From NCBI RefSeq assembly GCF_003667825.1, contig NZ_CP033043.1, positions 2,399,501-2,463,500 of the forward strand: a DNA stretch of 64,000 bases, read 5' to 3'. The translations under genes and the position numbers were made by a program. The stretch comes from Metabacillus litoralis (GTDB taxonomy: Bacteria; Bacillota; Bacilli; Bacillales; Bacillaceae). Position 1 is the stretch's first letter, and every line of letters begins with the position of its first letter. Positions 47,377-64,000 of this stretch are shown piece after piece. The notes beneath the pieces are model-generated. The model made no database searches and was not told the origin of the DNA. It saw only the letters and a list, made by a program, of their open reading frames with translations.

Positions 47377-48480
47377 TTAGTTTTTAGGACGTTTATAAAA
47401 AGGTGTCGCAACGACAACGGCTTTTAATCGCTTTTTACGAACCTGAACTTCAACTTCTGTTCCTAGTTCAGTAAATTCTGTTTTTAATAGAGCCAATCCA
47501 ATGTTTTTACCTAATGTTGGTGATTGAGTTCCTGTTGTTACCACACCAACCTCTTCGCCATTCACAAACACCTCATAGCCATGACGTGGAATTCCTTTTT
47601 CAATTAATTCAATTCCAACAAGCTTACGAGCTGCTCCGTTTTCTTTTTGATCTTTTAAAACAGCTTTTCCGTTAAAATCAGCTTCTTTATTCGTTTTAAC
47701 CGCAAACCCAATGCCTGCTTCAATTGGTGTGATATCTTTTGAAAGCTCCTGACCGTATAAAGGAAGAGTTGCTTCAAAACGAAGGGTATCACGGGCACCA
47801 AGGCCACAAGGTAACACACCGTCTTCTTTTCCAGCTTCTAAAATATTCTCCCAAAGCGTTATAGCATCATTTGCCGCACAGTAAAGTTCGAAGCCATTTT
47901 CACCTGTATAGCCTGTTCTAGAAACTAATGCTTTTACACCAGCAACATTTACATCATCTTTAAATTTAAAAAACTTAATATCTGTTAAATCTGTATCTGT
48001 AAGAGTTTGAAGGACTTTTTCAGCAAATGGTCCTTGAAGAGCTAAAAGGGCTAAATCATCGGAAACATTTTTAATTGAAACATCACCGAAGAGATTCGTA
48101 GTTAGCCAATCCACATCTTTTTCAATGTTTGAGGCGTTGATAACTAGCAGATAGTCATGATCAGCTTTTTTATAAATAAGAAGATCATCGACTGTTCCGC
48201 CATCTTCATAGCACATCGCCGTGTATTGTGCACCACCATTTTTGAGCAAAGACACATCATTTGTAGCGATTTTTTGTAGAAAAGCTAAGCTATCTTCACC
48301 ACGAACTTCCACCTCACCCATGTGAGACACATCGAAAAGCCCTGCTTTTGTACGAACAGCTTCATGTTCTTCTTTAATAGAAGAAAATTGAACTGGCAAG
48401 TCCCAGCCCCCAAAATCAATCGTTTTTGCACCGTAATTTTTATACACATCATATAAAGGTGTACGATATAGCTCTGTCAT
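47377..48480 (-). CDS. gcvT: Aminomethyltransferase, T-protein of glycine cleavage
   Basis: Transfers the methylene group from lipoyl-GcvH to tetrahydrofolate, releasing ammonia. 367 residues from the ATG at 48480 (GGGAG upstream); a longer open frame to 48519 enters the riboswitch terminator. Signature [38 protein letters not shown]. First gene of the operon, controlled by the riboswitch in its leader. Confidence 0.97.
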
Positions 48481-48517
48481 ATGGATTGCTCCCTTCAAAT
48501 CCTTAAAATTTGGCATC

Positions 48518-48571
48518 AAAAAAAGGACATAGTACTCCCATTTATAAAAATAGAAGTCTCTGTCCTTTTAA
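48518..48571 (-). terminator. Expression-platform terminator of the glycine riboswitch
   Basis: AAAAGGACA and TGTCCTTTT (48521-48529 and 48561-48569) close a long hairpin followed on the minus strand by TTTTTTT. The left arm in transcript sense directly follows aptamer 2, so ligand binding can decide whether it forms. Confidence 0.85.
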
Positions 48572-48755
48572 CCTGAAAGTTTACCTTATGTAAAGCAGTA
48601 CAAACTCGCACCTACATATGGCTTTCCCCTTTGGTAGTTTGTCTACATGACAAACACTCTCCAGAGTTGCGTCAAATAAGAGTTCTTTTGCCTGAGAGAT
48701 TCACAGTTTGTTTGCTCCTTCGGCGCTATACTAAGTTATAGTCTCTCCCCTTATT
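48570..48755 (-). ncRNA. Tandem glycine riboswitch
   Basis: On the minus strand two aptamers follow one another. The first has GGGAGAGACTATAAC, GCGCCGAAGGAGCAAAC and AATCTCTCAGGCAAAAGAAC. The second has GACGCAACTCTGGAGAGTG, ACCAAAGGGGAAAGCC and ACTTTCAGGTTAAAAGGACAGAG. This is the well-known cooperative glycine sensor in front of gcvT in Bacillus; with glycine present the downstream terminator is avoided. Confidence 0.95.
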
Positions 48756-49072
48756 CTCATCCGCTCATATTTTGTTGTAAAGTTGGTTATACTACTAAAA
48801 CCTGTATTCATGACATTTAACATTTCACATTTCAATAAAGAATGAAAGCGTTAATCTAACTGAAAGATATGAAAATGATGAACTTTCTTACTAACATCCT
48901 ACCATGAGGGAAGAGTTTCGACAATCACTTTTTAGCTTAACATTAAAATTATTTTCCATCACAATGTTCGTGTTTTCATTATATCAAAGTCATAATCTTG
49001 CATATATCCCTTTATGTTAATGAAATAGTGAACATTACAATAAGCACACAACACGAAAGGACTGTCTTTACG

Positions 49073-50758: not shown

Positions 50759-50783
50759 ATTTTTCTGAAAGGTGGCGAAAAGC

Positions 50784-51581
50784 ATGCAACAAGAGCAAAT
50801 TCACAGCTATTTAGAAAGCTTCTTCACAGCCAATTCCTGTGACATCATTGAAAAAGGCCAAGGCTACATGACCGTTCAGCTAACCATTGAAATGGACAAG
50901 GAATTAATGAACCGCCCTTTCTACTGGCATTACCTTGAAAAAACTAACGGTGTTCCAAACCCGATGAAGCTCACACTGATCACAGACCAAAATCGTGCTC
51001 CAAGTGATCTTAAAGGCGAGGTCATGCACTTCGGTGCCCCCCGCCTTCACCAAATTTTTCGTTCGACAACAAATTTAGGTAGCTATATCCGACTTTTTGA
51101 GCAGGTCAAAGAACCAGGTGGAAACATCCCACTACACCCTTGGATTGGTGTTAACATTATAGTTTCCTATCAGTGTGACATGAAAAAAGATCAGCTCTAT
51201 TCGATTGGATTACATTTGGTAAGTGGGACTTTAGTAGAAAACTTTCAAGAAAAACTTGAGAAATTGGAGCTAACACCGAAGATCCCAGACCTTTGTTTTA
51301 CCATGACACCGTTAATCAAACCCCAAAGTGGACTTAAACGGATTGAGCAGTTTATTATGCAATCTATTCATGAACAAGATCATTCCTGGGCGGATAAAGC
51401 ACGCGAAAGATGGAATGAGGATTTGAAGCTTTTGGATCATTTTTATGAAGATATGGATGAGAAGCCCGATTGTTATGAGGTGGAAAAGGAAGCGTTGAGG
51501 GAGCTTTATGAACCGCAGATCAATATTTCGGTCCAAAATGGAGGGGTTTTTTATTTGACTCCGCAGGGGATATTTAAATAG
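50784..51581 (+). CDS. yqhG: YqhG
   Basis: 265 residues from the ATG at 50784, with AAAGGTGG upstream; GTG 50772 is also open. No membrane segment. Family of unknown function always next to yqhH, so probably its partner. Contains conserved YLESFFTANSCDII, RPFYWHYLEKTNGVPNP and ELYEPQINISVQNGGVFYL. Confidence 0.9.
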   Translation: MQQEQIHSYLESFFTANSCDIIEKGQGYMTVQLTIEMDKELMNRPFYWHYLEKTNGVPNPMKLTLITDQNRAPSDLKGEVMHFGAPRLHQIFRSTTNLGSYIRLFEQVKEPGGNIPLHPWIGVNIIVSYQCDMKKDQLYSIGLHLVSGTLVENFQEKLEKLELTPKIPDLCFTMTPLIKPQSGLKRIEQFIMQSIHEQDHSWADKARERWNEDLKLLDHFYEDMDEKPDCYEVEKEALRELYEPQINISVQNGGVFYLTPQGIFK

Positions 51582-51587
51582 TATTAC

Positions 51588-51620
51588 GAAATGACAATCG
51601 GTACCGATTGTCATTTTTTG
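51588..51620 (+). terminator. Terminator of the yqhHG operon
   Basis: AAATGACAATCGG and CCGATTGTCATTT form a near-perfect 13-bp stem followed by TTTTG, 8 bases after yqhG. Confidence 0.92.
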
Positions 51621-51637
51621 TAAAAAAGTAAATTTTG

Positions 51638-51645
51638 TTCGACAA
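51638..51645 (-). promoter_or_regulatory. Spo0A box upstream of sinI
   Basis: TTCGACAA, the exact reverse complement of the 0A box. In B. subtilis sinI is activated by phosphorylated Spo0A. It lies about 280 bases before the riboswitch, so action on the sinI promoter is uncertain. A weaker 0A-like TTATCGACA at 51803-51811 sits about 35 bases before a TATAAT at 51843. Confidence 0.45.
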
Positions 51646-51916
51646 AAATTCAATTTTAGACACGACTTCTTATATTAATAATATGTAAACAAAAACCCCT
51701 TAACATATTATAACCCCCCCTAAACAGACAACAAATCAGGACTAATTACCCGTTTAATATTACAGTAAAATTAAAAAAACCATCAATTAAAGAAATTTTT
51801 CCTTATCGACACCATTCTGCACACTTTCTAAAAATTCCCTTTTATAATAAGAATAGTTAATAAGACAGACATTTTTCAAGGACTTTTGCAACGTTAGGTT
51901 AGTCATTCAGTGACAA

Positions 51917-51922
51917 TATAAT
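51917..51922 (+). promoter_or_regulatory. Candidate -10 element of sinI
   Basis: TATAAT at 51917-51922 would place transcription start near 51929, exactly at the aptamer. The -35 (TTAGGT, spacing 17) is weak, suggesting an activator. A second TATAAT at 51843-51848 is an alternative. Confidence 0.4.
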
Positions 51923-51929
51923 CAGTTCA

Positions 51930-52016
51930 AAGGCAAACCTATTGAAAAATAGGGACGCAAAGTCACAGATCTTCAGTATTAAAAACTAAGATGGCTGGGC
52001 TGCCTGGAATACAGGA
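51930..52016 (+). ncRNA. Cyclic-di-GMP class I riboswitch (GEMM-I) in the sinI leader
   Basis: The order of conserved blocks fits GEMM-I: AGGCAAACC at 51931-51939, a GAAA-tetraloop hairpin CCTATTGAAAAATAGG (51938-51953), GGGACGCAAAGTCAC (51952-51966), then after a variable arm GATGGCTGGGCTGCC ending near 52014. AGGCA can pair with TGCCT to close P1. The aptamer ends about ten bases before the AGGAGG site (52024-52029) of sinI. No terminator with T run follows, so control is probably at translation. Ligand binding is inferred from the consensus. Confidence 0.88.
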
Positions 52017-52038
52017 GTATTTTAGGAGGATGAGATAG

Positions 52039-52185
52039 TTGAATAATGAAACGATACACAATCTTATTAAAGACAGACAGCTTGACCACGAATGGGTTGA
52101 ATTAATTTTAGAAGCATTGGAAATTGGTATTAGTGTAGAAGAAATTAAAGAATTCTTTATTAAGATGGGAAGTCCTGCTGTTTAA
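52039..52185 (+). CDS. sinI: SinI, antirepressor of SinR
   Basis: 48 residues from a TTG start, AGGAGG 9 bases upstream. The core LDHEWVELILEALEIGISVEEIKEFF matches the SinR-binding helical hairpin of B. subtilis SinI (Leu-Asp-x-Glu-Trp-Val-Glu start). Binds SinR one-to-one and frees its targets. The C-terminal tail of B. subtilis SinI is missing; the protein stops after KMGSPAV. Non-ATG start plus a riboswitch leader suggest tight dosage control. Confidence 0.92.
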   Translation: MNNETIHNLIKDRQLDHEWVELILEALEIGISVEEIKEFFIKMGSPAV

Positions 52186-52252
52186 CTCATTCTTACATAA
52201 AATTTTTTTAGAAAACCGTTCTCCATATCAAACAAATCCCTTCTTTATATGT

Positions 52253-52258
52253 TATAAT
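52253..52258 (+). promoter_or_regulatory. Candidate -10 element of sinR
   Basis: TATAAT 28 bases before the sinR start, in the gap between sinI and sinR. B. subtilis has a separate constitutive sinR promoter in this place. A GTTCTCC (52218-52224) nearby resembles a SinR site. Confidence 0.45.
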
Positions 52259-52285
52259 AGCATTATTAAAGGAAGGTGACTTGAC

Positions 52286-52621
52286 GTGATTGGCCCACGA
52301 ATTAAAAAATATAGAACCCAAAAAAACCTATCATTATCCGAACTAGCAGAACGAGCAGGAGTTGCAAAATCATATTTAAGTTCGATTGAGCGCAATCTCC
52401 AGTCAAATCCTTCTGTTCAGTTTCTGGAAAAGGTGTCATCTGTACTCGGTGTATCGGTAAATACCCTCCTAAATGAACAAAATGAAACGGATCCCGAAGA
52501 ACTTGACTTAGAATGGACAAAACTTGTTCAAGATGCGATGAAATCCGGTGTGTCTAAAGAACAGTTTAAGGAATTTTTGGAGTTTAACAAGTGGAGACTT
52601 CAGAATGATCCTGATAAATGA
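52286..52621 (+). CDS. sinR: SinR, biofilm master repressor
   Basis: 111 residues from a GTG start with GGAAGGTGA upstream. Xre-type helix-turn-helix at 1-62 (IGPRIKKYRTQKNLSLSEL, SYLSSIERNLQSNPS) and a C-terminal SinI-like helical hairpin (LDLEWTKLVQDAMKSG, FKEFLEFNKWR) used for dimer formation and SinI binding. In B. subtilis it represses matrix operons eps and tapA. Very close to B. subtilis SinR. Confidence 0.95.
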   Translation: MIGPRIKKYRTQKNLSLSELAERAGVAKSYLSSIERNLQSNPSVQFLEKVSSVLGVSVNTLLNEQNETDPEELDLEWTKLVQDAMKSGVSKEQFKEFLEFNKWRLQNDPDK

Positions 52622-52842: not shown

Positions 52843-52862
52843 TTGTTCTTTATAAAGAATAA
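52843..52862 (+). promoter_or_regulatory. SinR operator-like inverted repeat before the precursor gene
   Basis: GTTCTTTATAAAGAAT (52845-52860) is a palindrome with one mismatch and fits the SinR inverted repeat known from the tapA promoter (TTTGTTCT half site). It lies just before the ribosome site (AGGAGGTG) of the precursor gene. Confidence 0.55.
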
Positions 52863-52880: not shown

Positions 52881-53090
52881 ATGACCCTAAAAACAAGTGA
52901 TAATCGTCCGTTGGTTTTGGACCATCAGGCGATTCGGTTTGAGACTGCTCAGAGTTGGAATCCTGGAAAAGGTAATACGAACCATCCCGGAACAGGAAAT
53001 GATGGAGTAAACTGGCCAGGAAATAATCCAAATCCTACTCCAGGAGGGGCTGGAGCACCTGGTAAAGGTGCTGAGAATAGACGTAAGTAA
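52881..53090 (+). CDS. Putative RiPP precursor peptide, Gly/Asn/Pro-rich
   Basis: 69 residues, strong AGGAGGTG site. Residues 8-26 (RPLVLDHQAIRFETAQSW) look like a leader: they keep a Pro, a Phe and a Thr in roughly the order seen in leaders recognised by PqqD-like proteins. The rest (27-63) is a Gly/Asn/Pro-rich region with repeated NPG, HPG, WPG, APG and ends basic (ENRRK). No Cys, no Ser after 25. There is no obvious lasso ring, since no Asp or Glu lies 7-9 residues after a suitable Gly or Ala at the leader end. The call rests on position and neighbours. Confidence 0.7.
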   Translation: MTLKTSDNRPLVLDHQAIRFETAQSWNPGKGNTNHPGTGNDGVNWPGNNPNPTPGGAGAPGKGAENRRK

Positions 53091-53101
53091 TATCAATCTT
53101 T

Positions 53102-53132
53102 TCAGGAGGTCTTCTTCTTTGACCTCCTATTT
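53102..53132 (+). terminator. Hairpin between precursor and kinase genes
   Basis: AGGAGGTC and GACCTCCT (53104-53111 and 53121-53128) form a perfect 8-bp stem followed only by ATTT. Probably a leaky terminator or stabilising structure that yields more precursor than enzymes; it also masks an AGGAGG. Confidence 0.7.
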
Positions 53133-53153
53133 GGGAAATGAGGAAAAGTTAAA

Positions 53154-53936
53154 ATGTATTACTCACATATAAAAATAGCAGAACACAAACTGGTAGTTTC
53201 TAGTTATTCAACTAAAATAGTAAACTTAGTTAAGGAAAATTTTATGGATGAAATTAATGAAGATATTAAACCAAATCTCTCAGTCCATATAGATGATGGA
53301 TACGGGATTCCATTCAATGGGTATGAAGTATCCATTACCAAAACCAAAGAATACATTTCTTTTAAGCGTTCTGACTACATTATCCGCATAGATAATTTAT
53401 ACAGAAACGCAATGATCTGGGTACATGATGAACTTGCTTTAAAACATGCTTTAATGAATTTGTATAGCTCTTTTATCGTCTATCATAATTGGGGAATCCT
53501 ACTTCATTCTTCTTGTGTTATTGATAACGACAATGCACATATTTTTTCCGGACATTCTGGTGCGGGGAAATCTACAGCTGCAAGACTTTCTTCACCAAGG
53601 GAATTATTATCTGATGAGGCATCTATTATTAAAATTTCCCCTGACAGTGTAACTGTCTTCGATTCCCCTTTTAGAAGTGAATTAAATAGTAAATGCATAA
53701 ATACATCATTTGAGTTAGGGAGTATTCAACTACTACATCAATCTCTAAAGAATAAAAGAGAACAAATACAAAAATCAAACAGCATGCTACATTTAATGGA
53801 CAAAGTCTTTTATTGGGATGATTCTCCCAAGGAGACTACTAAAATCTTTCATTTGCTCCATTACCTAGTACACCAAGTACCAATCTATGACCTCCATTTT
53901 CAAAAAAACAATACCTTTTGGGAGATGATCTCATAA
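53154..53936 (+). CDS. HPr-kinase-like protein of RiPP clusters
   Basis: 260 residues. P-loop GHSGAGKST at 133-141 preceded by LLHSS, with LLSDE following, the HprK/PEP-carboxykinase-like nucleotide fold. In lasso clusters (paeninodin, pseudomycoidin) homologues phosphorylate a C-terminal Ser of the precursor. This precursor has no Ser at its end, so substrate or chemistry may differ. ATG with GAGGAAAAG upstream. Stop overlaps the next start (TAATG). Confidence 0.85.
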   Translation: MYYSHIKIAEHKLVVSSYSTKIVNLVKENFMDEINEDIKPNLSVHIDDGYGIPFNGYEVSITKTKEYISFKRSDYIIRIDNLYRNAMIWVHDELALKHALMNLYSSFIVYHNWGILLHSSCVIDNDNAHIFSGHSGAGKSTAARLSSPRELLSDEASIIKISPDSVTVFDSPFRSELNSKCINTSFELGSIQLLHQSLKNKREQIQKSNSMLHLMDKVFYWDDSPKETTKIFHLLHYLVHQVPIYDLHFQKNNTFWEMIS

Positions 53937-54202
53937 TGACACAGTATATCAAAAAAAGTGATTATGAAGCTGTTCAGCTTGATGATCAGTGGATTATATT
54001 AAATACAGACCAATTTACAGTAACAAAATTAAATGATTTGGGTGGATATTGCTGGTCTTTACTTGACTCACCTCAAACTGTTGAAAGGATGACGCAATTG
54101 ATTGAGGAAAAATATATTTTAGATAATAACTCCCTTTCTTCTAGTATACAAGAATTTCTACAAGAGTTAATAGAATATGGATTGGTCCAACATGCAGTTT
54201 AA
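53936..54202 (+). CDS. PqqD-like leader-recognition protein
   Basis: 88 residues from the ATG at 53936 that overlaps the kinase stop. Winged-helix PqqD/RRE pattern: DDQWIILNTDQFTVTKLNDLGGYCWSLLD, then a helical half with FLQELIEYGLV. Such proteins bind RiPP leader peptides and hand them to modifying enzymes. Likely binds residues 8-26 of the precursor. Overlaps the peptidase gene. Confidence 0.85.
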   Translation: MTQYIKKSDYEAVQLDDQWIILNTDQFTVTKLNDLGGYCWSLLDSPQTVERMTQLIEEKYILDNNSLSSSIQEFLQELIEYGLVQHAV

Positions 54203-54668
54203 TCAAGATACTGTCGAGTTATTACTAATAACTATAAAAAAATACGGTTGGATAGATCTACCCTCGTATGGTACTAGCATGTACCCTTACATAAAAAAAG
54301 GAAACATATGTCGATTTGTTCATTTTGATGAAATGAACGTTAAAAAAGGAGACATTTTACTTTATCATACAAACTCTGGTCAATTAATAGCCCATCGATT
54401 ACTTTCTGTTCTAAAACAAGATAATAATCAGAAACAATTTGTTTTAAAAGGTGATACAAATCTATGTACAGATGAGCCTATTAATCAAAATCAAATAATA
54501 GGTAAGCTCATCACAATCCAAACTACAAAAAGTAAGAAATACACAAATAAGTTCCCCTCCATTGCCTGGAGCAAGTTCATATTATCTTTTCCAATTGTTT
54601 CAAGGCTACTAAGATACTATCTGTCAGTAGAATATCAATACAAAAATCGTTCGGGAGTCTCTACATGA
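54177..54668 (+). CDS. S26/S24-type signal-peptidase-like protein
   Basis: 163 residues. Ser34 in GTSMYPYI and His73 in LIAHRLLSV replace the Ser-Lys dyad of ordinary SPase I, as in SipW and eukaryotic-type signal peptidases; KGDTNLCTDEP follows as in that family. A hydrophobic stretch near 120-140 (ILSFPIVSRLLRYYL) may touch the membrane. Candidate leader-cleaving enzyme of the operon. Start 54177 or 54192. Confidence 0.8.
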   Translation: MDWSNMQFNQDTVELLLITIKKYGWIDLPSYGTSMYPYIKKGNICRFVHFDEMNVKKGDILLYHTNSGQLIAHRLLSVLKQDNNQKQFVLKGDTNLCTDEPINQNQIIGKLITIQTTKSKKYTNKFPSIAWSKFILSFPIVSRLLRYYLSVEYQYKNRSGVST

Positions 54669-56473
54669 TAACTGATAAACTATCATCTATCTTAAAGGAA
54701 ATAAATTTAAAAGGAATCAAGAGAACCTTTCAGTTATTAGGTCCATATATCCTTTCTAGCTGGAAATCGTATACTGGACTTATCGTTATTTTATTCGCAG
54801 ATATTTTTTTAACTATCGGTTTTGCTTGGTTCTTTGGAACAATTACAGATGCAGCAGTATCTGGGGAATTCGATAAAATTAAATCCTTACTGCTTGTTGT
54901 ATCAATCCTAATTGTTAGCAGCCAAATAGTTACCTTTTTTAATACCTATTTAGAATCCTATGTAACAAGTAAAATAAAAAGAGATCTAAAGGAATATGTC
55001 CTAAAACAAATTATGTTGTTACCCACTAGTAAACTGTCAAAAATCCGTACTGGTGAACTAATGACTCATTTTACAAATGACATTAATTGTATTGATGGTG
55101 TAATTGGTAGTAACCTTATATACCTTATTCAACTTCCACTAATATCAATAGCTGTGTTTATTTATATGCTCCAAATTAATTGGCAATTATCAGTGCTTAG
55201 CCTTTTTATCATCCCCATCGCAATAGTCGCTGGTGGGATTTTTGGTATTCTTATTAGAAATAATAGTCGAACAATTTACAATAAAATAGGTGATATAAAT
55301 AGTCAGCTCAATGAAACATTTCAAGGAATACCAATTATCCGCTCATTTCTTATTGAACGATTGTTTTTAAGGAAATTTTATGATCAAAACCACTCTTTGT
55401 TTGACTTAGAGATGAAAAACGCTAAACTACGTGGGACCTTTTATGTTGTTGGTGGTCTGATTTCGTCTATTACTTACATTATAAGCCTTTGTTTAGGAGC
55501 TTTTTTTGTATCTAATGGACAAATCACAGTTGGTTCTCTTCTAACTTTCGTAACCCTAATGCAACATCTAATTAGTCCTCTTACAGGGCTTGCAGGCTTA
55601 TGGGGAAGCTTTCAAAGCTCAGCATCTGCTGTTGAACGGATCTCAAATGTACTCGATATTCAACCAATAAATAAAGAGCTCCCTACCTATGTTGATTCAG
55701 TTAAAATACCTAAAACTATACAGTTTAGTCATATTTCTTTCTCATATGAACAAGAAATGCAGATTTTTAATTCACTAAACTTAACGATCCAAACTGGAAA
55801 GGTTATTGCATTTGTAGGTCCTAGTGGTGCAGGAAAAACAACATTATTTCACTTACTTCAAGGATTTTATCAGCCACAATCCGGGCAAATTTTAATGGAT
55901 AACACTCCCATAGATCAACTATCTTCCTCTCACCTCAGAAGTACTTTTGCTCATGTCGCACAAGATACTTTTTTATTTAGCGGCACTATTAAAGATAACC
56001 TATTACTCGCTCGACCAAACATTAGCGAATTAGAAATGATCAATGCTGCGATAGCTGCTAATATCCATGACTTCATTATGTCACTACCCGAACAATACAA
56101 CACTGAAATTGGTGAACGTGGAGTAAGACTTTCCGGAGGACAAAAACAAAGAATTTCTATTGCCAGGGCAATATTAAAGGATGCTCCAATTCTATTACTT
56201 GATGAAGCTACATCTGCTTTGGATAGCGAGTCAGAGTTTAAGGTGAAAGAAGCATTGGAAAGATTGATGAAGAAAAAAACGACTTTAGTCATTGCCCATC
56301 GTTTATCAACAATACAACATGCTGATGTAATTGTTGTTCTTGATAACGGTGAAATCGTTCAACTTGGTACACATGAAGAGTTAATGCTGCAACCTGGCTT
56401 ATACAGAAGACTAACAGAGACTCAATCTTTAGCACAGGAAATATATAAAGAGAACAGCGCTATATCTATATGA
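54665..56473 (+). CDS. ABC exporter of the RiPP operon
   Basis: 602 residues, six membrane helices (about 35-320) fused to an ATPase: Walker A GPSGAGKTTLFH, signature LSGGQKQRISIARAIL, Walker B ILLLDEATSALD, H-loop VIAHRLST. No C39 peptidase domain at the N-terminus, so leader removal must be done elsewhere. Half-transporter that should act as homodimer. Start overlaps the peptidase stop (ATGA). Confidence 0.92.
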   Translation: MITDKLSSILKEINLKGIKRTFQLLGPYILSSWKSYTGLIVILFADIFLTIGFAWFFGTITDAAVSGEFDKIKSLLLVVSILIVSSQIVTFFNTYLESYVTSKIKRDLKEYVLKQIMLLPTSKLSKIRTGELMTHFTNDINCIDGVIGSNLIYLIQLPLISIAVFIYMLQINWQLSVLSLFIIPIAIVAGGIFGILIRNNSRTIYNKIGDINSQLNETFQGIPIIRSFLIERLFLRKFYDQNHSLFDLEMKNAKLRGTFYVVGGLISSITYIISLCLGAFFVSNGQITVGSLLTFVTLMQHLISPLTGLAGLWGSFQSSASAVERISNVLDIQPINKELPTYVDSVKIPKTIQFSHISFSYEQEMQIFNSLNLTIQTGKVIAFVGPSGAGKTTLFHLLQGFYQPQSGQILMDNTPIDQLSSSHLRSTFAHVAQDTFLFSGTIKDNLLLARPNISELEMINAAIAANIHDFIMSLPEQYNTEIGERGVRLSGGQKQRISIARAILKDAPILLLDEATSALDSESEFKVKEALERLMKKKTTLVIAHRLSTIQHADVIVVLDNGEIVQLGTHEELMLQPGLYRRLTETQSLAQEIYKENSAISI

Positions 56474-56492
56474 CAGAAGGAGGTGCATAAAT

Positions 56493-57596
56493 GTGATTAA
56501 AAAATTTATTGAAGATCTTTATTATGAATCTTCTCTCCCACTCAATTATAGTAATAAGGAATATAAAGAACTAAAAGCAGATATAATCCATTTCAATCTA
56601 GAACCCACATTTCTTTCAATGTTAAAACATAATAATATAATAGATACGATACCAATAAATCTCAAAGACATGCTGCTTAAAAAGTACAATCAACAGTTCA
56701 TCCAAAATTTACTCATTAAGAACCAAACCCAAATGATACTGTCCGCATTTGAAGAAAACAATATTTTTGTGATCCCACTTAAAGGTCCTTTCTTCTCTGA
56801 AAAATACTTTAATGACTTTGCTGCAAGATCATCATCAGATATTGATATCCTTATTAAGGAAGATCAAATTGATGAAACGATAGCGTGTATAAAAAAACTG
56901 GGATTCATTGTTGAGGAAAATAATGATGAAGAGCATTTCCATCGTACATTCAGTAAAACACTTCCAGGATCAACTATTCCACTGTTAATAGAAATTCATT
57001 GGAATATAGTAAGAGAAAACACCTCGGCCCTATCTATTGATGAGTTATGGAACCAGTCTATACCAATAGAAAATTATCAATTTGTATTAGAACTATCTAC
57101 AATTCATGCATTTTACTTCATCATTTTACATGCTTGGCGTCATAACTTAGACTCACTAAAGCATTTTCTAGACATCATTCAAATGATTAAAATTCATGGT
57201 AATGATTTAAATTACGAATCACTTTTTAAAATAGCCAAAAAACATAAAACACTCAAACGAGTTATACGAACACTATCAATCGTATATCAGCAGTTCCCCT
57301 TTCTAAATAATATATTGAAGCTGCCAATTACAAAACAATATGGATCATTATGGCAATACGAATGGATTCGGGAAGGGAAAATAGATAAAAAGAAGATATA
57401 TTTAGATTTTATAGACTATCAGTTTAGAAGTTATGATACCTTTTCACATCGACTCATTGCGTTGCTTGAGTGGCTTTTTCCTTCTAAATTTGGATTGGAA
57501 GGAGAACTGAAGGGTAATAAAATGAGTTATTTGAGATTATTTAAACAAAGAGGGAAAGGAATACTTTCGTCTATATCAATAAAAAGTAAAATTTAA
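56493..57596 (+). CDS. Nucleotidyltransferase family protein (NTP_transf_5)
   Basis: 367 residues from a GTG start with AGAAGGAGG upstream. Nucleotidyltransferase core ARSSSDIDILI (Asp116 and Asp118) preceded by IPLKGPF, then EIHWNIV and a helical C-terminal half. In pseudomycoidin a relative modifies the phosphorylated lasso peptide by adding hexoses. Here it could do the same on the unknown product. Last gene of the plus-strand operon. Confidence 0.85.
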   Translation: MIKKFIEDLYYESSLPLNYSNKEYKELKADIIHFNLEPTFLSMLKHNNIIDTIPINLKDMLLKKYNQQFIQNLLIKNQTQMILSAFEENNIFVIPLKGPFFSEKYFNDFAARSSSDIDILIKEDQIDETIACIKKLGFIVEENNDEEHFHRTFSKTLPGSTIPLLIEIHWNIVRENTSALSIDELWNQSIPIENYQFVLELSTIHAFYFIILHAWRHNLDSLKHFLDIIQMIKIHGNDLNYESLFKIAKKHKTLKRVIRTLSIVYQQFPFLNNILKLPITKQYGSLWQYEWIREGKIDKKKIYLDFIDYQFRSYDTFSHRLIALLEWLFPSKFGLEGELKGNKMSYLRLFKQRGKGILSSISIKSKI

Positions 57597-57898: not shown

Positions 57899-58017
57899 AT
57901 CGAGGTCTCCTATTTAAATTAATTTTAGTTCTCAATAAAGAACAACTCAACAGAACAATAAATATAAATCCTCAATTCCAACTCATACAATTCTTATTAG
58001 AAAACACATATTTACAC

Positions 58018-59594: not shown

Positions 59595-60764
59595 CTAGGA
59601 TATTACATGCTTTCTTTTTTTCCTCCAAAACACAATAAAAGGCCTTAGAGGAAAATATAAAAAGTGAAATAGTTTTGGTAAAGGAAATACTTCTGCATCT
59701 TCTGCAAAAGGATGAACAATACTTAAAATATACATGAGCTTTTGTCTTTTCGTCATGAGAGAAAATAAGTGATGAGAGTGATAGCTAAACACTTCTTTAG
59801 GAACTGGATCTGTATGAAGATTAACCATCCTCTCCAAGTAAAATATCGCATCTTGTGCAAGTGCTTTGGCACGTTTGTTTTTTATTAATGCTTTCATTGG
59901 TTCTTTGATTTTTGTATTGAAAAGCTTACTTGATAATATAAGAGCCTGTGCACCAGCATTATAAGATTGATATTTACGGAGTAACTTGTTCACCTCAATC
60001 CAATCAACCGATTGTTCCGCCAATCTATGAATGTCAAATAACCAACGAATTCGTGACCAGCCATGTCTTGCCCCATGTACAACTAGAAATACAAATAAGT
60101 CTTCTTTTCCCAGCATATAAACTGGATAGCTTGTTAACTTACTCTTTACTCTCCTACTCCACAATTCTTGAAACTTTGGTTCTACCCCAGGACCTGGATG
60201 TAACCTCCAATGAATTTCTATCTTTAACTTTTTCTGTGGATGAAAAAAAGTAACATGATGATGTCTCCATTTCCAGTCATTTAAAACTGACTTAAAGTAA
60301 TCATCTTTTACATAGCCAATATTAACTAGGATTTCTTCTGCTCTAGTAAGATGCTCAATTGGTATTATGAAATCAAGGTCACTCGATGTTCTAAATGAAA
60401 CATCACCATATAACTCATGAGCAATTATTGGACCTTTAAGGAAGATAAGTGGCATTTTAGCCTCGGTAAAAAAACGGCTTATGTTCTCCATTTCTGCTGT
60501 TAAAAACAGCATTTTAAATGTGTTTTGTTTGTATAGATATGATAGTTGCTCAATGATTTGTTTTGGAATTACTCCTCCATCGTATTTTTTAAAGAGTGGA
60601 TATACTAGAGGAAATACTCTGTGGTGAATAACTTGTTGAATAAAAAGATCCCAATCTATATCAGAATACAGCTCATCATTAACATTACTTGTTCTCAGCA
60701 ACTTAAGAATAACTTTTAATTCTTGTGGGACATTTGCTAAATCCAATTTTTGATTGTCATTCAT
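59595..60764 (-). CDS. Nucleotidyltransferase family protein, minus-strand cluster
   Basis: 389 residues, AAGGAGGGG before the ATG. Same family as the plus-strand protein: IFLKGPIIAHELYGD then FRTSSDLDFIIP with Asp129 and Asp131, and KIEIHWRLHPGPG. Ends the minus-strand operon. Likely tailoring enzyme for a lasso-type peptide. Confidence 0.87.
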   Translation of the reverse strand: MNDNQKLDLANVPQELKVILKLLRTSNVNDELYSDIDWDLFIQQVIHHRVFPLVYPLFKKYDGGVIPKQIIEQLSYLYKQNTFKMLFLTAEMENISRFFTEAKMPLIFLKGPIIAHELYGDVSFRTSSDLDFIIPIEHLTRAEEILVNIGYVKDDYFKSVLNDWKWRHHHVTFFHPQKKLKIEIHWRLHPGPGVEPKFQELWSRRVKSKLTSYPVYMLGKEDLFVFLVVHGARHGWSRIRWLFDIHRLAEQSVDWIEVNKLLRKYQSYNAGAQALILSSKLFNTKIKEPMKALIKNKRAKALAQDAIFYLERMVNLHTDPVPKEVFSYHSHHLFSLMTKRQKLMYILSIVHPFAEDAEVFPLPKLFHFLYFPLRPFIVFWRKKRKHVIS

Positions 60765-60835
60765 ATTATTTCCCCTCCTTCTTTTAGCAAATCCCCCTAT
60801 TATTTCTCATTTCATAAGTGTTTTATATCCTAAAA

Positions 60836-61129
60836 TTATGACTCTAATATTAACAAACCATCATCATTTAATAGATTGATAAATTCCATTACCTGCTCCT
60901 CACATTCTGACCGTTCAACATCATATTCTAGAAGTAATCTATCTATTATTTTTGAAATGGAAATTGGTTCTTTCATTAAATCCCATATAACTCCACCAGT
61001 CCCACCTAGATTATAATATTTACCATTTTCTAAATTTAACATTACCTTTTCTCCATCCATATCACTTTCAATATTTCCTTCTCTCTGTTGAGCAATATGA
61101 CTTATTAAAATTTTCTGAGTTTTAATCAT
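60836..61129 (-). CDS. PqqD family lasso B1 protein
   Basis: 97 residues with GGGAGGAAG before the ATG. Winged-helix RRE pattern GEKVMLNLENGKYYNLGGTGGVIWDLM and C-terminal VMEFINLLNDDGLL, closer to the lasso B1 type than the plus-strand PqqD-like protein. Would bind the leader and present it to the B2 protease. Confidence 0.9.
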   Translation of the reverse strand: MIKTQKILISHIAQQREGNIESDMDGEKVMLNLENGKYYNLGGTGGVIWDLMKEPISISKIIDRLLLEYDVERSECEEQVMEFINLLNDDGLLILES

Positions 61130-61288
61130 AAATAACTTCCTCCCTTTTAGATGTTGTAATTTTTGTTCTTTTTAAAATAATTTGACTATTTTGTCTATCT
61201 GTTCAACATGGCTCTCATTTTTTGTCGAAATTAAAAGTACATGAAATAGTTATAAAAGTAATACATTCAGTAGTTATAACATGTTAAT

Positions 61289-63100
61289 TTAATTTGCAAT
61301 TTTTAGTTGATTTCCTAATAACTCACTGAATAATCCCTTTTCATCATTAGCGAGATCATCATATCCCCCAGATTGAACAATCTTACCATTCTCTATTACA
61401 AGAATTTGGTCTGCATTTCTAATGGTTGATAGTCTATGGGCAATAACAATAACCGTCATACTACCTTTTAACTGTTCGATTGCATGTTTGATTTTCATTT
61501 CATTTACTGAATCTAAAGCACTTGTTGCTTCATCTAGTATTAATATAGAAGGTTTCTTTAAGATTGCACGTGCTAAAACAATTCGTTGTCTTTCTCCACC
61601 AGATAACTTAATTCCTCGGTCCCCAATTAATGTATCGAGTCCGTTAGGTAAGTTCCTCACAAATTCAGCAGCTGAAGAAAAATCCATTGCTTCCCATAAT
61701 TCTTCTTCGCTAGAATCTGGTTTTATCATTAATAAATTATCACGTATAGTTCCATGGAATAGAAAAGGATCTTGAGGCACGTAACTTATCGAGTTTCTCA
61801 GTGATAACAAGTCACTATTTGAGAGTTTTTTATTATCAATTAATATGGTGCCAGATTCAGGTTTTAGAAAACCCATTAATATATCAATAAGTGTACTTTT
61901 CCCTGCACCTGATTTGCCAACAATAGCTGTCATTTGGTTTACTCTGATTTTCAAATTAATTTCCTCGAGTATATACTTAGTAGATTCATCGTTATAGCGA
62001 AAAAAAACGTTTGAACACTCCAATGAATCATTAATATTAATTTTATCAATTCTTTTCTCCTTGATGCTTACAAGACCACCTAAGTCCTGAGATTTATTGC
62101 TAGATTCTTGAAGCTCCATAATTTTCTCAACAGCAGGCATGGCAGATGATATGTTTTCTAAATTTGATTGTATACCTGTGAAACGAGGCCATAAACGAGT
62201 AAAAATCATAATAATCAATAACATTAATGCTCCATCACTCTGAAAAAAATTAAAAGATATATAAATAAATAAAGCAATCATCATAGTGGAAAATAGCTTA
62301 TAAGTCAGTTTTGAATTACTGCGAACTTTTGCGCTTTCATATCTTTCATTTGCAACAAGATCAGACCAAGTGGATAACCATCTATATTGTGAAGCCTCTA
62401 ATAAGTTACTTTTAATATCTTTAACACCATTAAAATGATCTGAAATTCCTGCTAAATATCTTTGAGATAATTCATTCATTACCTTCCCTAATTCCCTGGA
62501 CCTTCTAAAAAAACTTTTAGATAAGAAGGTTATAATCAATCCACAACATAAAACAAAAAGTGTCATCTTAACAGAGACAAACAATGCAATTACAATTTGA
62601 ATTACTGTGAAAACAAGGGAGGCTAAAAATTGTAATAATAAAAATGTGCTGTTCGTTACTCTTCCAAGTTCAGAAGTAAGAGAATTGACTAAATCTGACT
62701 TTCTTCTTTTGGTGAAAAATTCCCAATCCGCCTTCAACAAAGAGCAATAAAGATCTAATCGAATATGATTTATAAAACCAGTATGAATTCTTATTTCTCT
62801 TAATCCTATATTTCTAGAAAGGAGGGCCTGACTTGATACCAAGATTACATAGAAAAATAAAATGATAAGTAAGGCTTGTTCTGTCGGGATATTTTCTAGA
62901 AAATTAAATACTTGAATACCTGGTATATCATTTATACTTATCTCGACAATCCCAATTGCACTTAATAATGGTATAAGCAATAAGATTCCAGCACTTTCTA
63001 AAAGCCCCATTAACATACTTCCAAATAGATTGATATATAGTATTTTCCCTGAATAGTTATGAAGTTTTCTTAAGAAAACTAATAATGGTGATAGTTTCAT
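61289..63100 (-). CDS. ABC exporter of the lasso-like cluster
   Basis: 603 residues from the ATG at 63100, which follows the B2 stop at once (TAAGATG) with GGTGG upstream. Six membrane helices then ATPase with Walker A GKSGAGKSTLID, signature LSGGERQRIVLARAIL, Walker B ILILDEATSALD, H-loop VIAHRLST. No peptidase domain. Type D exporter of lasso clusters. The 159-base gap after it holds no precursor gene. Confidence 0.92.
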   Translation of the reverse strand: MKLSPLLVFLRKLHNYSGKILYINLFGSMLMGLLESAGILLLIPLLSAIGIVEISINDIPGIQVFNFLENIPTEQALLIILFFYVILVSSQALLSRNIGLREIRIHTGFINHIRLDLYCSLLKADWEFFTKRRKSDLVNSLTSELGRVTNSTFLLLQFLASLVFTVIQIVIALFVSVKMTLFVLCCGLIITFLSKSFFRRSRELGKVMNELSQRYLAGISDHFNGVKDIKSNLLEASQYRWLSTWSDLVANERYESAKVRSNSKLTYKLFSTMMIALFIYISFNFFQSDGALMLLIIMIFTRLWPRFTGIQSNLENISSAMPAVEKIMELQESSNKSQDLGGLVSIKEKRIDKININDSLECSNVFFRYNDESTKYILEEINLKIRVNQMTAIVGKSGAGKSTLIDILMGFLKPESGTILIDNKKLSNSDLLSLRNSISYVPQDPFLFHGTIRDNLLMIKPDSSEEELWEAMDFSSAAEFVRNLPNGLDTLIGDRGIKLSGGERQRIVLARAILKKPSILILDEATSALDSVNEMKIKHAIEQLKGSMTVIVIAHRLSTIRNADQILVIENGKIVQSGGYDDLANDEKGLFSELLGNQLKIAN

Positions 63101-63101
63101 C

Positions 63102-63566
63102 TTATTTTCCACCCACAAGATTTGTCATTTTCGCAAATTTACCAGTGACCGTGAATCTATACATCTCCTCATAACCGGTCACATACATTGAACCACTCCT
63201 TAACCAAGCATGAGCAATCATTTTACCATTCTCATCTGTACCTGTTCCTAAATAAAGGGTACTATCTATGTTACGTCTTTCTAGCATCTTTAGTGCTGCA
63301 ATAGCCCTAACTAAGCATTTACTTTCCCAAAAGGTATACTTACTCATAACTTGAATTGAATGTCGAATATGTTTCAATTTACTATTATGACTTTCTGTAT
63401 CCTCTACTTTTGTTTCCTTCATATATACACCGAGAGAGAGCGCTAATTTTGAAAATGGGAGATACATTAGTTGAAACCGAGCCCACCCTAGATAAAGGAA
63501 GGCTTCTATTAATAAACCTATTGTCGTTAAGTCCAAACTCATAAGAACCTTAAATTTTCCTATCAT
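63102..63566 (-). CDS. Lasso peptide B2 protein, transglutaminase-like leader peptidase
   Basis: 154 residues from the ATG at 63566, AGGTGA just upstream. Cys84 in ESKCLVRAIAALKML and His119 in MIAHAWLRSG fit the Cys-His pair of the B2 papain-like fold; a short hydrophobic segment lies at 12-28. Cuts the leader before ring closure. Its presence marks this arm as lasso-type. Confidence 0.9.
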   Translation of the reverse strand: MIGKFKVLMSLDLTTIGLLIEAFLYLGWARFQLMYLPFSKLALSLGVYMKETKVEDTESHNSKLKHIRHSIQVMSKYTFWESKCLVRAIAALKMLERRNIDSTLYLGTGTDENGKMIAHAWLRSGSMYVTGYEEMYRFTVTGKFAKMTNLVGGK

Positions 63567-63571
63567 ATATT

Positions 63572-64000
63572 TCACCTATTTACTATTATTTCATTTTGAG
63601 TATTAGTATTGTTTCCTGAACTATTAATTTCTGTTAGTATCTTCTCAACAATCTGGAAAGCAGAGAATCCTGTTTCTGGCCTTTTAATTTGATAAAAAGG
63701 AAGACGCTCTGCTAATAAAGTGGATTTAATAAAATGCCATTTAGTTAAATTTAGTTTAGGAATAAGAAATTGGCGATATGTATGTGTAAAGAGTTTCTGC
63801 AGTAAATCAAGTCCATGTATAGGATGGATAGAAATTGAATCACCATTCGTTTTAACTAGTTCAAAAATTCCACCTAGAGGAAGCTGTGTTGTATGGAAAT
63901 TTTTTATTACCGGCTTACAAAATTTACTTTCCCTTCCATAAATCGGTCTCAGTTTTTCGTTACTAATACCAAAAGCGTCGAGGCTTTGCTGCCAAAGCTT
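63572..64000 (-). CDS. HPr-kinase-like protein, C-terminal part (5' end beyond window)
   Basis: 143 codons running off the right edge. The segment TTQLPLGGIFELVKTNGD, then HPIHGLDLLQKLFTHTYRQF and LAERLPFYQIKRPETGFSAF, is the C-terminal pattern of HprK-like proteins in lasso and capsule clusters (short leu-rich helix, then a final strand with RP). The P-loop lies outside the window. It is not the asparagine-synthetase-like cyclase, which must be further upstream if present. Stop at 63572, six bases before B2. Confidence 0.75.
   Translation of the reverse strand, partial: KLWQQSLDAFGISNEKLRPIYGRESKFCKPVIKNFHTTQLPLGGIFELVKTNGDSISIHPIHGLDLLQKLFTHTYRQFLIPKLNLTKWHFIKSTLLAERLPFYQIKRPETGFSAFQIVEKILTEINSSGNNTNTQNEIIVNR

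Follow-up and report, generated by a model that had tools for sequence, protein, structure and literature searches.

The leader of sinI in Metabacillus litoralis contains a class I cyclic di-GMP (c-di-GMP) riboswitch aptamer. A comparison with 53 other leaders predicts that this RNA is probably a translational ON switch, in which bound c-di-GMP would free the ribosome-binding site of the gene for SinI, the anti-repressor of SinR. The arrangement is found in most genomes of the genus and in several other genera, and all sampled members of the Bacillus subtilis group lack it.

The sinI-sinR locus

The window analyzed here is a stretch of 64,000 nucleotides (NZ_CP033043.1, positions 2,399,501 to 2,463,500) in which yqhG (50772 to 51581) is followed by the leader, sinI, sinR, and a lasso-peptide-like cluster. 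sinI (52039 to 52185, plus strand) begins with a TTG start codon, 9 nt after the Shine-Dalgarno (SD) sequence AGGAGG (52024 to 52029, plus strand), and encodes an anti-repressor of 48 amino acids. This short protein without a helix-turn-helix (HTH) domain matches PF08671 at 46.3 bits (cutoff, 31.4), and its best solved relative is SinI (1b0n_B; E = 6.9e-5). Since it misses the cutoff of the NCBI equivalog NF046031 (34.4 bits versus the 80 needed), we file it as a member of the SinI family and not as that equivalog. The neighboring sinR (52286 to 52621, plus strand) encodes a repressor of 111 amino acids with an HTH and a C-terminal SinI-like domain (Pfam HTH_3 and SinI), as expected next to a SinI-family gene, and matches 1b0n_A with an E value of 3.9e-44. 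The gene behind the aptamer had been named sinI in an initial annotation made from the sequence, and the profile match, the structural relative, and the adjoining sinR all agree with that name. In B. subtilis, SinI binds SinR and lifts SinR repression. By homology to the 1b0n complex, the SinI of the window would likewise bind and inactivate its SinR.

Two further elements of this neighborhood were observed. An open reading frame (ORF) of 69 amino acids after sinR is left unnamed by the NCBIfam and Pfam profiles. A glycine riboswitch (48670 to 48760, minus strand; 71.7 bits) precedes an ORF (47377 to 48519, minus strand) that by eye is gcvT, an ordinary arrangement.

A class I c-di-GMP aptamer precedes sinI

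A cmscan of the whole window places an aptamer of the c-di-GMP-I-GGC subfamily (RF03167) at 51923 to 52008 on the plus strand, scoring 64.0 bits (gathering score, 59; E = 8.3e-13 for the window). The parent family RF01051 recovers the same aptamer at 72.6 bits (cutoff, 35; E = 5.1e-14 for the genome). A GEMM-I aptamer in the sinI leader was the central proposal of the initial annotation, and the covariance search it had called for upholds it. The limits given there stand in part: the aptamer does lie before the ribosome site, but the gap from its end to AGGAGG is 15 nt and not about ten, and the start given, 51930, falls 7 nt inside the aptamer.

Aligned to the family consensus, the aptamer shows a P2 hairpin (CCUAUU-GAAA-AAUAGG) with a GNRA loop, a P3 hairpin, and the blocks GGCAAACC and GGGACGCAAAG. 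Its P1 is short, with 4 pairs: the 5' strand UCAG (51922 to 51925, plus strand), as read from the sequence, pairs with CUGG (52004 to 52007) in the bound form, and P1-like pairing is seen by eye in most of 22 aligned leaders. By eye and against a reference sequence, we take the ligand contacts G20, A47, and C92 of Vc2 to correspond to the first G of GGC, the first A of GCAAAG, and C52003, respectively. The window aptamer carries GGC, and its sequence suggests that it binds c-di-GMP. With scores over both curated cutoffs and a GAAA-capped P2, it resembles the riboswitches of c-di-GMP-I and c-di-GMP-I-GGC, from which it differs in its target, SinI, in its short linker, and in that the 3' strand of the aptamer itself is the predicted anti-SD strand.

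Aptamers upstream of SinI genes within and beyond the genus

A survey of sinI leaders in relatives, likewise proposed at the outset, finds, in 19 of the 21 genus genomes, an RF03167 match just upstream of the best SinI hit and on its strand. A SinR with 88 to 100% identity is encoded downstream in 18 of these 19 loci and was not found for the remaining one (L027). The other two genomes (G004 and G009) have no RF03167 match near a SinI hit, all of their matches (7 of 7 and 1 of 1, respectively) lying elsewhere. By coordinates, additional aptamer-SinI pairs are present in four genomes (G002, G008, G011, and G015). We also observe by eye a decayed aptamer 5' of a SinI gene of G015 (L036, reverse strand), with a GGCAAATC core and broken later blocks, in which the U-rich stretch and AGGAGG are still recognizable.

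For a wider view, we kept 80 of 91 named loci from a survey seeded with 14 SinI proteins whose genes carry an aptamer, and scanned them with cmscan at E ≤ 0.001. Twelve of the 80 (L044 to L055) are the same places as loci of the genus set, and none of the 80 record titles names the B. cereus group. Because of this seed, the frequencies that follow are not population estimates: 57 of 86 free SinI genes carry a c-di-GMP aptamer (54 of class I and 3 of class II), and every one of the 57 lies 11 to 57 nt 5' of the SinI domain of a free SinI gene. Among free SinI genes that adjoin a SinR gene, 38 of 55 have an aptamer, 23 in tandem and 15 convergent with sinR; by record title, they belong to Metabacillus, Cytobacillus, Lederbergia, Rossellomorea, Peribacillus, Siminovitchia, Sutcliffiella, Mesobacillus, Pontibacillus, Alkalihalobacillus, Salibacterium, Paenibacillus, and unclassified Bacillus. 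Among the 17 SinR-adjoining SinI genes without an aptamer are those of all eight named species sampled that we take to belong to the B. subtilis group (B. siamensis, B. nakamurai, B. mojavensis, B. halotolerans, B. velezensis, B. tequilensis, B. inaquosorum, and B. spizizenii). The window thus differs from the sinI-sinR switch of that group in having a c-di-GMP aptamer, and it is placed for control of SinI translation; the earlier suggestion that SinR gains a direct c-di-GMP input foreign to the B. subtilis scheme fits this distribution.

SinI genes that carry an aptamer but have no sinR beside them are seen repeatedly, in Oceanobacillus, Neobacillus, and others. A single strain, Bacillus sp. 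EB600, contains aptamer-SinI pairs at three separate places (L058, L061, and L062), with no sinR in the flanks examined.

The three class II aptamers (RF01786) lie directly before SinI in Paenibacillus loci (L106, L115, and L123), convergent with sinR. This class has an RNA fold unrelated to that of class I and is absent from the window, yet its predicted logic is similar, the aptamer-terminal CCCC pairing with a GGGGG ribosome site.

A hairpin predicted to hide the ribosome-binding site

The strand from 52000 to 52012 (CUGCCUGGAAUAC), made up of the last aptamer bases and the next four, can pair with 52017 to 52029 (GUAUUUUAGGAGG) across a 4-base loop, forming a predicted OFF-state hairpin (52000 to 52029, plus strand) with the SD sequence inside the stem. 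In the window, 12 of 13 pairs form around one G-A mismatch, at -12.0 kcal/mol (z, -2.67; 4 of 200 shuffles as good). This hairpin and the bound aptamer exclude each other, since both need the P1 3' strand (52004 to 52007) and C52003, and from this exclusion we predict that c-di-GMP turns SinI translation on. A leader of about 180 nt would be transcribed from a presumably Spo0A-dependent promoter. Without c-di-GMP, the stretch from 52000 to 52012, which comprises the presumed ligand-contact C, the 3' strand of P1, and the bases that follow, would fold onto 52017 to 52029 and hide AGGAGG. With c-di-GMP, the aptamer and P1 would close, the 3' strand would be occupied, and the free SD sequence would let SinI be made. 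SinI would then bind SinR and lift its repression, as is known in B. subtilis, and the Spo0A promoter and the riboswitch would together form an AND gate.

The hairpin is widely kept. At least 11 of the 13 pairs are formed in 38 of the 53 other class I leaders and in 21 of 35 distinct stems; in the remaining 15 leaders, fewer than 11 pairs form in the 13-pair register, the worst being two with 3 and 5 pairs, both of L091. L058, a class I leader that lacks the 5' motif, was left out of the stem and opening tests, and the three class II leaders were analyzed separately. Of all cells in the 35 distinct stems, 77.4% pair, compared with a mean of 72.2% and a best of 74.9% in 1,000 column shuffles. 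Two-sided changes number 25 (shuffle mean, 11.6; best, 20; 0 of 1,000 reach 25) and are spread over 9 pairs, a spread reached by 3 of 1,000 shuffles; these shuffles ignore relatedness, which inflates the test. The third pair is never standard in the 35 stems, as expected where both strands are fixed by other duties. A different hairpin that would compete with P1 (CCUG at 52003 to 52006 with CAGG at 52012 to 52015) was considered and rejected, as it is not kept in relatives such as L016, L018, L027, and L032, while the longer SD hairpin is.

Predicted accessibility points the same way. Across 54 leaders including the window, the mean cost of opening the SD sequence, which was picked for its similarity to AGGAGG and may be misassigned in unusual leaders, is 4.55 kcal/mol in the free leader, 2.57 kcal/mol with shuffled linkers, and 1.65 kcal/mol when the aptamer is kept from pairing downstream. 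This restriction lowers the cost by at least 2 kcal/mol in 36 of 54 leaders and by at least 1 kcal/mol in 43, and brings no fall in 4 (L060, L080, one of L091, and L110). The mean fall is 2.93 kcal/mol as observed and 0.57 kcal/mol with shuffled linkers, the observed value being the larger in 48 of 53 leaders; in 10 of 54 leaders, 10 or more of the 30 shuffled linkers conceal the SD sequence equally well, most of all in L089 (29 of 30). The fall in the window itself, 1.5 kcal/mol (3.4 to 1.9), is below average, and 0 of 30 shuffles are as good. In the three class II leaders, the opening costs of 5.9, 6.8, and 4.1 drop to 1.5, 1.5, and 0.2, respectively, a fall that depends on the assumed aptamer end (1.2, 3.1, and 0.7 when the lock is moved by 5 nt). 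The initial annotation held that the sign of control cannot be told from sequence; set beside 53 other leaders, the window does yield a predicted sign, which is ON.

Of the other readings, the one that survives best, though we consider it unlikely, is that the aptamer, though present, has no regulatory effect on SinI in cells or recognizes a different dinucleotide. An A in place of the first G of GGC is a mark of cGAMP-type GEMM RNAs, and 3 of the 54 SinI-linked class I aptamers (L058, L061, and L077) have it; from their sequence, these three may prefer another ligand. The window has GGC, however, and by eye keeps the other contact positions. An aptamer can also bind without effect, as the abstract describing Bc1 of B. 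thuringiensis reports binding of c-di-GMP and no expression response (PMC11218506). Against such idleness in the present case, conservation of both aptamer and hairpin over the genus and beyond argues for use.

Slightly less probable still is control of the opposite sign, in which the bound aptamer, stacked near the ribosome site, would block sinI translation, so that c-di-GMP would lower SinI. The aptamer does end only 15 nt from the SD sequence, and a short hairpin compatible with P1 (AAUAC at 52008 to 52012 with GUAUU at 52017 to 52021) adjoins that sequence, but this hairpin leaves AGGAGG single-stranded. The opening costs given above, which fall by at least 1 kcal/mol in 43 of 54 leaders with a mean far above that of shuffled linkers, also speak for ON, as does a report that sinI is up at high c-di-GMP in B. 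thuringiensis, in passages that name no riboswitch on sinI (PMC7793685).

We give very little credence to a transcriptional mechanism, in which c-di-GMP would choose between termination and read-through before sinI. By eye, at least 6 of the 12 other class I aptamers of the genome are followed by a hairpin and a U-run, unlike that of sinI: no terminator-like site is found in 51500 to 52300, the U-run falls inside the conserved stem, and the gap between aptamer and SD sequence is only 10 to 26 nt in 48 of the 52 leaders with a called start. Translational control by c-di-GMP, with an ON sign, remains our preferred reading.

Promoter and putative Spo0A input

The window shares with the B. subtilis switch the order of the homologous genes and the presence of Spo0A-box-like sites upstream. 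A distal site, TTTGTCGAA (51638 to 51646, minus strand), matches TTTGTCRAA, which we take as the Spo0A-box consensus, at 9 of 9 positions; 18 of the 19 genus loci, the window included, have a site with 8 or 9 of 9 matches about as far upstream. A proximal core, TGTCGA (TCGACA on the plus strand; 51806 to 51811, minus strand), is the same in all 19 aligned genus leaders including the window, and so is the probable sinI -10 element TATAAT (51843 to 51848, plus strand). From this element we infer a transcript start at about 51855, some 68 nt 5' of the aptamer. The -10 element is not among the -35/-10 pairs returned by a consensus scan, and its -35 must therefore be poor. By analogy to B. subtilis, these sites suggest a Spo0A-driven sinI promoter, and the Spo0A input looks retained.

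A second TATAAT (51917 to 51922) abuts the start of the aptamer. As a perfect -10-like hexamer, it could start transcription inside the aptamer and leave the main sinI mRNA without a working one, which we judge highly improbable, since the hexamer is not kept in many relatives (TTTAAT, ACTAAT, and AAATAAT) while the -10 at 51843 to 51848 is the same in 19 of 19, and the sinI aptamer of B. methanolicus came from 5' untranslated regions mapped by RNA sequencing (PMC4342826). We thus rejected it as a true promoter; not being kept, it is probably a by-product of P1 conservation.

c-di-GMP signaling in this genome and previous descriptions

The genome of 5.23 Mb encodes 23 GGDEF domains and contains 13 class I aptamers, found in the same places with RF03167 and RF01051. 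The first long ORFs after the 12 aptamers other than that of sinI include three GGDEF proteins, one EAL protein, and two HAMP sensor or chemotaxis-type proteins.

The initial annotation knew of no description of a c-di-GMP riboswitch on sinI, but one exists: a transcriptome paper of 2015 records a putative "(c-di-GMP)-sinI" riboswitch of B. methanolicus MGA3 in one table line and one sentence (PMC4342826). The ligand and the target gene are the same as here, and the entry came from a comparison of RNA-sequencing-mapped 5' untranslated regions with Rfam; the section containing them gives no sequence, sign, platform, test, or survey. In the literature searched, from which subscription papers are mostly absent so that one may exist, we found no second description. 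A sinI riboswitch does not appear in the relevant passages of PMC7793685, PMC12452182, PMC7266159, PMC10240345, PMC8876208, PMC7423583, PMC6143707, PMC8470499, PMC12747935, PMC4879592, and PMC3971182 or in the abstract of PMC11218506. The riboswitch class was therefore already known and sinI had been noted once as its target; the present analysis adds that the arrangement is widely conserved and is missing from the B. subtilis-group species sampled, and it contributes the prediction of an ON mechanism and the class II counterpart.

Two comparisons place the switch among described systems. The Bc2 RNA before cap/cbpA in the B. cereus group is likewise of class I, has an ON sign, and serves an adhesion gene (PMC7423583 and PMC4933901); Bc2 reportedly controls a surface protein at the level of transcription, whereas the RNA of the window would control translation of a regulator. 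For B. subtilis, in contrast, c-di-GMP is stated to have no part in biofilm control, with reference to Gao 2013 (PMC4879592).

Putative outputs of SinR

SinR of B. subtilis binds GTTCTYT, best as an inverted repeat, with a Kd of 300 nM (PMC3163267). With a search pattern designed on that consensus (GTTCTYTNNARAGAAY), perfect SinR-operator-like palindromes are found at only three places in the 5.23-Mb genome, all within 19 kb of sinR, and the reversed pattern is found at one. The first, GTTCTTTATAAAGAAT (52845 to 52860, plus strand), lies 20 nt 5' of the start codon of a lasso-like precursor ORF; the second (2466317 to 2466332 of the genome sequence, G000) precedes by about 100 nt a lasso-cyclase-like ORF of the opposite strand; and the third (2470121) is inside a glycosyltransferase-like ORF. 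A palindrome with one mismatch, not among these three, is seen at 57928 to 57943 of the window. Across the genus, a stricter palindrome occurs at 13 places in 10 of 21 genomes (reversed pattern, 3), and 5 of the 13 lie about 13 to 16 kb downstream of sinI. In G000 and G006 the palindrome precedes a lasso-cyclase-like ORF; in G001, G010, and G014 it separates a galE-like ORF from one that diverges from it. These genes are all named by eye.

Two lasso-peptide-like clusters lie beside sinI and sinR on opposite strands (52881 to 57596 and 59595 to 64000 onwards). They comprise, mostly by eye, a small precursor-like ORF, a signal-peptidase-like protein, an ABC transporter, and nucleotidyltransferase-like ORFs, and an asparagine-synthetase-like ORF belonging to the second set lies past the end of the window. 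As to the lasso reading, matches to NF033536 and TIGR04352 are weak and below cutoff and a PqqD match is over its cutoff; weak HprK-like and PqqD-like matches occur in the clusters.

Unlike in B. subtilis, whose control matched, no TasA-family match is found in this genome. This absence and the SinR-type palindromes before lasso-like and galE-like ORFs suggest that the switch may here have a secreted peptide and sugar-coat genes as its output, in place of the matrix known from B. subtilis. Where the initial annotation spoke of a direct input to the matrix decision, the input to SinR stands, while the matrix may not be its main output.

Implications for the SinI-SinR switch

The route by which c-di-GMP reaches the biofilm switch in relatives of Bacillus is ill defined. 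Taking all of these observations together, we tentatively put forward, at somewhat less than even confidence, a reading in which SinI is the entry of c-di-GMP to SinR across much of the Bacillaceae, as part of an AND gate of Spo0A and c-di-GMP that is absent in the B. subtilis group, was built at least twice (with class II in Paenibacillus), and here acts on lasso-like clusters and not on a TasA matrix. If this is true, Spo0A would decide whether sinI mRNA is made and c-di-GMP whether it is translated, and in this genome c-di-GMP would control a secreted peptide via SinI and SinR. The lack of the gate in the B. subtilis group would then explain why the link is missing from textbooks, and the class II version in Paenibacillus would mean that selection has built the gate at least twice; the presence of two unrelated riboswitch classes before sinI strongly indicates that selection acts on the wire itself. 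A c-di-GMP sensor that is conserved on the sinI mRNA and has a predicted sign offers a connection between second messenger and SinR that is direct and easy to test, and its distribution suggests that B. subtilis is not representative.
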